Positions 25,005 through 27,469 of a stretch of DNA of 64,000 nt are shown piece by piece. How positions within the stretch are numbered: position 1 is the first letter of the stretch; the number at the start of each line of letters is the position of its first letter. The position numbers were made by a program, and so were the translations under genes. Below the pieces are notes generated by a model that saw only the letters and a program-made list of their open reading frames with translations, made no database searches and was not told where the DNA came from. Source of the DNA: Thalassovita mediterranea (GTDB taxonomy: Bacteria; Pseudomonadota; Alphaproteobacteria; Rhodobacterales; Rhodobacteraceae); the NCBI RefSeq assembly GCF_001458435.1, contig NZ_CYSF01000002.1, positions 62,001 to 126,000 of the forward strand, read 5' to 3'.

Positions 25005-25883
25005 ATGGCGATCACTGCAAAGATGGTGAAAGAACTGCGCGACTCGACCGGCGCAGGCATGATGGACGCGAAAAAAGCGCTGACCGAAACCGATGGCGAC
25101 ATGGAAGCTGCGGTTGACTGGCTGCGCACCAAAGGTCTGGCGAAAGCCGCCAAGAAATCCGGCCGTACCGCTGCTGAAGGCCTAGTTGGCCTGTCCGTAG
25201 AAGGTGGCAAGGGTGTTGCCGTTGAGGTGAACTCGGAAACCGACTTCGTTGCGAAAAACGCCGAATTCCAGGAAATGGTTAAAGGTATCGCAGCAGCTGC
25301 AATCAACGTTGCTGACGTTGAAGCGCTGGCCGGTGCAGACATGGGCGGCAAAACCGTTGCCGACACCATCACCGACAAAATCGCCACCATCGGCGAAAAC
25401 ATGTCGCTGCGCCGCATGGCATCCGTTGAGGGTGACATCGTTGCGTCCTACGTACACAACGCAGCCACCGCTGGCATGGGCCAGATCGGTGTTCTGGTTG
25501 CCCTGAAAGGCGGCGACGAAGCGTTCGGCAAGCAGGTTGCAATGCACATCGCAGCAGCAGCACCGCTGGGCCTGGGCGAAGCAGACCTGGATCCGGCCGC
25601 TGTTGAAAAAGAGCGTCAGGTTCAGATCGACATCGCGAAAGAATCGGGCAAGCCCGACGCCGTGATCGAGAAAATGATCGTTGGCCGCATGAAGAAATAC
25701 ATCGCCGAAAGCACCCTGCTGGGTCAGGCGTTCGTTGTGAACCCCGACCTGACCGTTGAAAAAGCGGCTGCAGAAGCTGGCGCTGAGATCCTCGGCTTCG
25801 TGCGTCTGGAAGTGGGCGAAGGCATCGAGAAAAAAGAAGAAGATTTCGCAGCCGAAGTGGCAGCAGCTGTTGCAGGTTCCTAA
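25005..25883 (+). CDS. tsf: Elongation factor Ts
   Basis: This 292-residue guanine nucleotide exchange factor recycles EF-Tu. The N-terminal UBA-like domain reads [19 protein letters not shown]. The core contains [13 protein letters not shown], which contacts EF-Tu, and the C-terminal [20 protein letters not shown] is conserved. A strong Shine-Dalgarno (AAGGAG) precedes the ATG. It is the second gene of the rpsB-tsf operon, ending at a strong terminator. Confidence 0.98.
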
Positions 25884-25921
25884 TTTGGCCTGACAGTCCT
25901 GAATTTTCAGGGTCTTTTATG

Positions 25922-25958
25922 AAACGCCCCGTGCATATCGCGCGGGGCGTTTTCTTTT
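25922..25958 (+). terminator. Intrinsic terminator of rpsB-tsf
   Basis: AAACGCCCCG and CGGGGCGTTT form a perfect 10-bp stem, followed by a T-rich tail (ttcttttg), 38 bases after the tsf stop. Confidence 0.9.
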
Positions 25959-26051
25959 GCGTTGTCAGGATGTCGATCTGATCGCTAGATGATTTACGAG
26001 GTCGGGTTTCGCAGGGGCAGGGCGCGTCGAGCAGAGGCACTGCCTGTGCAA

Positions 26052-26084
26052 ACAAAAACGGCGCCGCTGTAATAGCGACGCCGT
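26052..26084 (-). terminator. Minus-strand intrinsic terminator
   Basis: On the minus strand ACGGCGTCGC and GCGGCGCCGT form a 10-bp stem with one mismatch, then TTTTTGTTT. It lies about 300 bases past the LuxR-type stop codon, so it ends either a long 3' UTR or a separate RNA. Confidence 0.8.
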
Positions 26085-26262
26085 CTCTTGAAACACCGGT
26101 GCCCCCAAGGACGATTGGGGATGAGTTGAGGGCAACCGATACGCCGGTCCGTACGTGATCAATAAACGCACGGGCCGGTAGTCCGGTAAAACCGGGTGAG
26201 CATCAGAGCCACCGAATAAGGCGGTTTACACTCACATGTCCCAGGCTAAAGCCACCACTCAC
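26052..26262 (-). ncRNA. Candidate structured RNA between tsf and the LuxR-type gene
   Basis: No gene is seen between 25,960 and 26,385, yet the DNA holds a series of stems. Listed by plus-strand position, they are GTGAG/CTCAC (26,196-26,235 or 26,258-26,262), CCGGT/ACCGG (26,183-26,195), a 13-bp stem at 26,144-26,178 with one mismatch and one G-U, CCCCAA/TTGGGG (26,103-26,120), and a minus-strand terminator (26,052-26,084). The strand is set by that terminator. It could be a free small RNA or the 3' end of the luxR-type mRNA. I could not match it to 6S, SRP, RNase P or tmRNA. Confidence 0.5.
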
Positions 26263-26283
26263 GGAACGGTTGCACAATGCCAA

Positions 26284-26296
26284 ATATGCTGCATAT
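26284..26296. promoter_or_regulatory. Palindrome ATATGC-T-GCATAT
   Basis: A perfect 6+6 palindrome around one base lies just upstream, in the minus-strand sense, of the candidate structured RNA. It could be an operator for that RNA. No -35/-10 pair was convincing nearby. Confidence 0.3.
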
Positions 26297-26385
26297 GCGA
26301 AAGTATGGTTTTCCGTACCTTGCGTGGTTAACGTGGTCTTTCGCGCTATAACGTGTTGAGTCTACGTGTTTAATTTCCTGAGAAA

Positions 26386-27141
26386 TCAGGCTTCGACCAC
26401 GAACATTTGGTTCTGCAGTGCCGCCTTCAGGACGGCCTGTGCCGTAGTTTCCACATTCAGAGAGTCACGCGCCAGGCGCAGGTGCTTTTCGACTGTTGCC
26501 GGTGTCAGACCCATCAGAAGCGCAATGTCTTGCGTTGTTTTGCCATCGCCAACCCATTGCAGTGCTTCGCGTTGGCGGCGTGTCAGCGTCTGGTTCGGTT
26601 GGGCGTAGGGCAGGGTCATGATTTTAAGGTGGCAGACGTTGTTCATCACCATGATGTCGTCGCCGTGGTCCGCCCAGATTGCGTCAATTTCTTCTTGTGA
26701 GATGTCCGCGCGCGCAGTCAAAGCGATGGCGCCCTTAGCCCGTGGCGAGATGGATTTGAAGCTGATCGAATAGCCGGCTGTGACGTTCATCTTGCGATTA
26801 AACTCAAGCACTTTGCGTTCGCTTTCAGTCAGCGCGCCGGTTTCCAGCATTTCGCCCAAGATCTTCCAACTGGCAGCGCCTTCGTTTTCTAGCACCCATT
26901 TCATCATTGGGCCGTGAAAATACAGACCTTTGCCGATGAATGTATCGGTGTAAGCCGCGTCGTGGTTGGTGAGCATGATAAAATCATCCGGGTCACCCAG
27001 CGACGTTGAGGTGCTGAAGTGGGTGAACCCATAAAGCAGTCGGTCAAACCCGTAGGTCGCCATCTGCCGCGTATGCATGTCCCACAGCTCTTCGATTGAC
27101 TGAGCGTTCGTCAATGCCCGAAGGTACTTACTGTTACGCAT
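26386..27141 (-). CDS. LuxR-type regulator with autoinducer-binding-like domain
   Basis: About 251 residues. The N-terminal autoinducer-binding fold (residues 15-165) is followed by a LuxR/GerE helix-turn-helix (LTRRQREALQWVGDGKTTQDIALLMGL-type, residues ~185-245). The usual Asp-Pro of the ligand pocket (TraR D70-P71) is replaced by FHGP at 75-78, while the later Trp (residue 92) is kept. It may therefore bind a different ligand or none. No luxI synthase is nearby, making it a LuxR solo in this window. A longer TTG-started frame (27,204) is possible, but the ATG at 27,141 is preferred. Confidence 0.85.
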   Translation of the reverse strand: MRNSKYLRALTNAQSIEELWDMHTRQMATYGFDRLLYGFTHFSTSTSLGDPDDFIMLTNHDAAYTDTFIGKGLYFHGPMMKWVLENEGAASWKILGEMLETGALTESERKVLEFNRKMNVTAGYSISFKSISPRAKGAIALTARADISQEEIDAIWADHGDDIMVMNNVCHLKIMTLPYAQPNQTLTRRQREALQWVGDGKTTQDIALLMGLTPATVEKHLRLARDSLNVETTAQAVLKAALQNQMFVVEA

Positions 27142-27469
27142 TACTGTCCCAATCTGTTCTGTCTGTTCATCGCCGTGCAGAAATTTCACGTCTAGAACGG
27201 GCAACTATGTTTGCTTGGTAAAACTTTACATCGCACACTCGGGAATTGTCGAGAGGTGGTGTAGATCAACAATGCAGTAACATATGGGGGTGGTATGGCC
27301 GTTTTATTTACATAATATTTATTATACAATTTTTATAAATTGACATTTAGGGCCGTGTTTTGCGCATCTACGACTACGCTTTTTGTTTCAAATCAGCACC
27401 CTATTCGACGCTGTTAAACGAAAACAGGCGCCGTGGCGCCTGTTTGGTGTTGCGTTTTGATCGTCAGAT
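27142..27469. promoter_or_regulatory. Gap with AT-rich promoter region of the LuxR-type gene
   Basis: This 328-base gap has no gene. It holds an unusually AT-rich stretch at about 27,298-27,342. On the minus strand this contains an extended -10 box TTGTATAAT (27,321-27,329), but no good -35. A minus-strand terminator for gcdH lies at 27,420-27,446. Confidence 0.4.
27420..27446 (-). terminator. Intrinsic terminator of gcdH
   Basis: AAACAGGCGCC and GGCGCCTGTTT form a near-perfect stem. On the minus strand TTTTCGTTT follows. It lies about 25 bases after the gcdH stop. Confidence 0.85.

Follow-up and report, generated by a model that had tools for sequence, protein, structure and literature searches.

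The window, the whole 64,000-nucleotide stretch of Thalassovita mediterranea DNA that we analyzed, carries on its minus strand a gene for a LuxR-type regulator with an autoinducer-binding domain and a GerE helix-turn-helix (positions 26386..27204; Pfam Autoind_bind and GerE). Because the alignment of its homologues begins at about residue 22, the true start of luxR is probably the ATG at 27141. The convergent downstream neighbor on the plus strand is tsf (25005..25883), recognized as an open reading frame with homologues, and it has its own separate plus-strand terminator at 25921..25953. Between the two genes lies a structured non-coding RNA of about 218 nt (26050..26267, minus strand), which runs from GUUCCGUGAG to the U-run of a terminator and is supported by six hairpins, conservation and covariation. 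The order luxR–RNA–tsf was common to all nine genomes of the genus Thalassovita, and in nearly all loci read the intergenic RNA was flanked by a LuxR-type gene and a convergent tsf. The RNA follows luxR in the same orientation, at a median distance of 119 nt. In one congener (G001; L010 1655-3024) a second piece of luxR, covering residues 143-271 and 81% identical, sits just upstream of luxR and resembles a tandem duplication.

A first-pass annotation of this DNA had proposed a structured RNA candidate with five stems on the minus strand at 26052-26262. All of the stems it described were present and fold beyond chance, although the number of hairpins rose to six and the limits had to be widened slightly. 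The promoter (26274-26318) falls outside the range it gave, and the lux-box, the invariant 5′ motif and the family-wide distribution were absent from it.

Hairpins, conserved segments and folding of the RNA

The 5′ end of the RNA, GUUCCGUGAGUGGUGGC, is nearly invariant and forms the stem-loop P1, GUUCC(GUGAGUGGUGGCUUUAGCCU)GGGAC (26238..26267, minus strand). The first 17 nt were identical in all 56 aligned rows, most of these homologues having been fetched or picked by the 5′ motif or by a covariance model; among the named loci, which were fetched via the motif, its invariance is true by construction. The motif was also kept in the congeners and in the model-found loci, which were picked without it, and diverged copies showed small variants. 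The closing stem of P1 was found in 56 of 56 sequences, where the changes were A/G only and on the 3′ side only, with no two-sided change. That this stem is near-invariant while the other stems covary hints at recognition by sequence.

The remaining hairpins follow on the same strand. P2 (26196..26235) comes from the predicted fold and contains the covarying helices 3 and 4, and P3 (26183..26195) is a small CCGG hairpin that is absent from some genera, for example in Ruegeria pomeroyi. P4 (26144..26178), in which CCGGCCCGUGCGU pairs with ACGUACGGACCGG in a long stem of 13 positions, is supported by the fold and by compensatory changes, and is the 13-bp stem of the earlier description, with its single mismatch and its G-U pair. 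P5 (26094..26141), based on the fold and on covariation, presents a C-rich motif in its loop: the unpaired and conserved CUCAUCCCCA (26116..26125) is a candidate pairing seed, complementary to G-rich stretches such as GGGGAUGAG, and its nine-base UCAUCCCCA was identical in all nine congeners and largely kept across genera. The copies in Rhodobacter capsulatus and R. aestuarii (L128, L136, L063) lack the C-rich P5 loop and retain the 5′ module, P3, P4 and the terminator. A pairing of GUGAG with the CUCAU loop was considered and rejected, as it is not preserved where the loop reads CCCAU or CCAU. P6 (26054..26088) is the minus-strand terminator already noticed in the first pass, an intrinsic terminator followed by a U-rich tail, and its hairpin covaries across genera. 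The predicted C-rich single strand in the P5 loop and the U-run terminator are typical parts of small regulatory RNAs.

Against dinucleotide shuffles, the fold of the 311-nt region gave z = -4.4 on the minus strand versus -2.5 on the plus strand, and the 218-nt RNA gave z of about -5.0. Across 30 genera the mean z was -5.25 (range -7.9 to -2.5). These values bear out the earlier impression that such stems are unusual for random GC-rich DNA. In a MAFFT alignment of the nine congeners, two-sided changes occurred in 25 of 54 predicted pairs, compared with 15.0 ± 2.3 after shuffling, and none of 500 shuffles reached 25; 87.8% of the cells paired, compared with 36-53% when the partners were slid. 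The multi-genus alignment of 56 sequences contained 225 double-changed cells versus 148 in shuffled controls when the structure was transferred via the window row, a transfer that misregistered P1. When the fold was computed on this alignment itself, P1 was recovered in every sequence and two-sided changes were present in 19 of 30 pairs. Compensatory changes across relatives, proposed at the outset as the check on the stems, thus exceeded both the shuffled and the slid controls.

The early statement that no coding frame is present also held, since the frame from the invariant GUG spans anywhere from 4 to 76 codons in the 56 homologues and no frame is conserved. A repeat or mobile element was rejected on finding one copy in the genome. 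Rfam 15, named beforehand as a test, has no model that covers the region: at the gathering threshold the only match in the window was a tRNA elsewhere, a relaxed search of the RNA region at E up to 10 gave nothing near threshold, and 20 homologous loci gave 0 matches. This agrees with the first-pass opinion that the RNA is not one of the common housekeeping RNAs. The best match of the genome to 6S RNA (RF00013) lies on contig C17, separate from the RNA locus, which rejects that identity. The match (C17:241976-242132, L012) scored 33.5 bits, below the cut-off of 46.4, and is probably the diverged 6S RNA of the genus. A Qrr sRNA was likewise rejected, there being no Rfam match and the conserved promoter consisting of a lux-box and CANNNT rather than a sigma-54 promoter. 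Literature searches of the main texts of papers found neither the 5′ motif nor an sRNA together with tsf in Rhodobacter, and the main text of a survey of sRNAs in R. pomeroyi mentions neither tsf nor quorum (PMC4809877).

The putative promoter, its lux-box and the adjacent luxR

Upstream of the RNA we found a -10-like element, CATTGT (26274..26279, minus strand; consensus CANNNT, -12 to -7), defined by the positions conserved in 79 named loci: C at -12 in 66, A at -11 in 74 and T at -7 in 77. Farther upstream, a lux-box-like palindrome, GTACGGAAAACCATAC (26303..26318, minus strand), occupies a fixed position and is centered near -43 relative to the start of the RNA. Palindromes of the GTAnGGAATCCCnTAC type begin 51 nt before GUUCC in all nine congeners (52 in one), and in 76 of the 79 named loci the best box has its start at -51 or -52. 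Besides the box, neither the nine congeners nor the 79 named loci showed a conserved -35 hexamer. Class II LuxR-type activators bind boxes centered about -42.5, and the dyad found here, counted from the putative start site, shows this arrangement and replaces the -35 element. As predicted from these elements, the layout is that of a LuxR-activated promoter, and the presence of a promoter in fixed phase before the RNA supports a transcript separate from the mRNA of the regulator.

The perfect palindrome is the sole copy in the 3.43-Mb genome, and palindromes with one mismatch were rarer in the whole genome than in the reversed control. One perfect site is no more than chance alone would give, so it is the conserved position of the box that argues for it. 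The same counts gave no evidence of further sites, and a large LuxR regulon was rejected. Some species have tandem boxes, with another such palindrome about 49 bp farther upstream (L008 1458-1473, L009 1614-1629, L014).

The box and an upstream luxR were both present in 108 of 115 named loci. In four loci with luxR the box was weak or missing (L086, L131, L144, L152), and one locus (L080) has the box but no luxR within 1.5 kb. In five RNA loci, all from genomes that gave no luxR match at E 1e-60, the box was absent (scores -29 to -11; the 95th percentile of shuffled scores was -7.6), and it was kept in seven whose luxR is only 31-59% identical (scores 17 to 27), a comparison that is small at five loci against seven. 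In our view nothing ties the box to the adjacent LuxR more strongly than this apparent co-loss of luxR and box. Because the RNA outlives the regulator in these five genomes, it has some function without LuxR.

The regulator corresponds to the unknown LuxR solos of group 1, described in the main text of a survey as occurring in 25 Rhodobacterales genera with luxR and tsf convergent (Subramoni et al. 2015, PMC4338825). The same text gives the changes W57Y, Y61F and D70I/G/A in the ligand pocket of these solos and suggests a link to aroQ (PMC4338825). By manual reading, the LuxR of the window fits the pocket changes (Y, F, G). It has the autoinducer domain, is encoded upstream of a convergent tsf and has no cognate luxI alongside; the sole Autoind_synth match in the genome is weak and lies on another contig. 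This AHL-synthase-family match (C6:5159-5377, L201; 31 bits) falls within a frame of 255 aa, which may encode a LuxI-like acyltransferase.

Distribution of the RNA

BLASTN matched the RNA region in all nine genomes of the genus, and a covariance model built from these nine congeners detected the RNA in 182 of the 298 Rhodobacteraceae genera sampled, nearly always as a single copy. Ten genomes with a good luxR and no RNA match in the fast scan were read again without filters, and nine of them had a weaker copy at the same place. Two of these nine, L178 and L185, are the weakest and have marginal scores, though the 5′ motif of L185 is intact but for one mismatch. In the tenth genome (L186, G262), a diverged luxR stands beside tsf with only about 130 nt between them, and the RNA is lost. 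A search of 385 genomes of the class found the exact 17-nt 5′ motif in three, all of them Rhodobacteraceae, although diverged copies would escape an exact pattern. Named carriers include Ruegeria pomeroyi, Leisingera, Phaeobacter, Shimia, Salipiger and Rhodobacter capsulatus, and by these sequence matches the RNA is conserved across marine Rhodobacteraceae. The motif was also seen on contigs labeled Nocardioides marinus, Enemella evansiae and a Sphingomonadales MAG (L093, L110, L060), records that are probably mislabeled or contaminated.

Interpretation and comparison with known systems

Comparison across genomes shows a structured, conserved, non-coding RNA whose fixed promoter layout is linked to luxR. 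Judged from its sequence, the RNA has the marks of a trans-acting sRNA, being short and non-coding, with its own promoter and an intrinsic terminator. We consider it fairly probable that the locus is a gene for a small regulatory RNA activated by the adjacent LuxR solo, and the most likely arrangement would be a dedicated pair of LuxR solo and regulatory RNA. In the proposed mechanism, LuxR would bind the palindrome centered near -43, which would stand in for the -35 element in class II activation; transcription would begin at GUUCC and stop at the RNA's own terminator about 218 nt on, and the RNA would then control other genes post-transcriptionally. We infer that LuxR binds here and that it activates rather than represses; the exact start, the signal and how the RNA acts are likewise inferred. 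Most likely the RNA would base-pair with target mRNAs through exposed segments that are conserved, namely the CUCAUCCCCA loop, the 5′ module or both. A search of 12 genomes with one 11-mer seed, TTGGGGATGAG, turned up no target at a ribosome-binding site or translation start that the genomes have in common; its matches fell within coding regions, in frames without an assignment or antisense to the RNA, and were mainly common to close relatives.

The same RNA may instead act through its invariant 5′ stem-loop, binding a protein or serving as a structural ligand, rather than as an antisense RNA, with the P5 loop in an accessory role. We regard this as possible, if somewhat doubtful. The universal closing stem of P1, with its lack of two-sided change, suggests sequence-specific recognition, and the seed search of the 12 genomes returned no pairing target. 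Moreover, P1 is retained where the C-rich loop is gone, in R. capsulatus and in four further loci (L192, L196, L198, L199); because these lineages keep the 5′ module, the C-rich loop is not the sole active site. However, the C-rich loop is strongly conserved in most genera, many sRNA seeds are likewise located at a conserved 5′ end, and the invariance of the 5′ motif is overstated by loci that were chosen via that motif. We therefore rank a trans-acting regulatory RNA first, with base pairing as its likely mode and protein binding via P1 as a serious rival.

Less probable by far is an origin from the 3′ UTR, in which the tail of the luxR mRNA would be released by processing and have no promoter of its own. 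Such an origin fits the position of the RNA, which follows luxR directly and in the same orientation, and transcription of luxR could stop at the terminator of the RNA. Against this stand the conserved box and -10-like element, at a fixed distance from the nearly invariant 5′ end, and the presence of the RNA in the five genomes without an upstream luxR. We give even less credence to a cis element only, acting as a terminator or mRNA-stabilizing 3′ structure of luxR or as a barrier between luxR and tsf transcription. Convergent genes with terminators would suit such an element, but a terminator requires one hairpin rather than six conserved hairpins together with a nearly invariant 5′ motif and a conserved loop, and a promoter is conserved in between, with the RNA retained where luxR is missing. 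Chance folding of intergenic DNA in a GC-rich window, or a mobile repeat, has almost no probability in view of the fold z-score, the covariation, the family-wide conservation and the single copy per genome.

Under the preferred reading of an RNA activated by the LuxR solo, the locus bears on a wider question. Roseobacters are abundant ocean bacteria whose signaling is much studied, and a function for the widespread tsf-adjacent LuxR solo has so far been lacking; an adjoining conserved RNA with a matching box offers this solo a specific, testable output. The RNA is a family missing from Rfam and from annotation in about 180 of the genera sampled, and its 5′ motif adds an RNA element of nearly invariant sequence that awaits an explanation. 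A bolder proposal, which we advance quite tentatively, is that this is a new RNA family, so far found in Rhodobacteraceae only, whose 5′ stem-loop is recognized by a protein or ligand and which forms the main or only direct output of the orphan LuxR. If true, a signal would be converted into one RNA rather than into a regulon of protein genes.

The RNA and the box are additions to the description of group 1 solos, as the main text of their survey contains no sRNA or non-coding RNA and leaves both undescribed (PMC4338825). Among known RNAs, the Qrr sRNAs of Vibrio are similar in being controlled by a cell-signaling regulator, as is proposed for the Thalassovita RNA, in their several hairpins and in a conserved single-stranded segment. 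The Qrrs are about 100 nt long, driven by sigma-54 and LuxO, and often present in multiple copies, whereas the Thalassovita RNA is about 218 nt long, has a lux-box promoter, occurs in single copy and has no Rfam match. The CcsR or 'cuckoo' RNAs share a C-rich single-stranded loop able to mask G-rich translation starts. They are tandem RNAs of about 100 nt with CCUCCUCCC, in contrast to the CUCAUCCCCA, six hairpins and one copy of the Thalassovita RNA, which again lacks an Rfam match. Finally, 6S RNA is comparable in being roughly 200 nt long, single-copy and structured, but it forms one long interrupted duplex, whereas the RNA described here folds into six separate hairpins.
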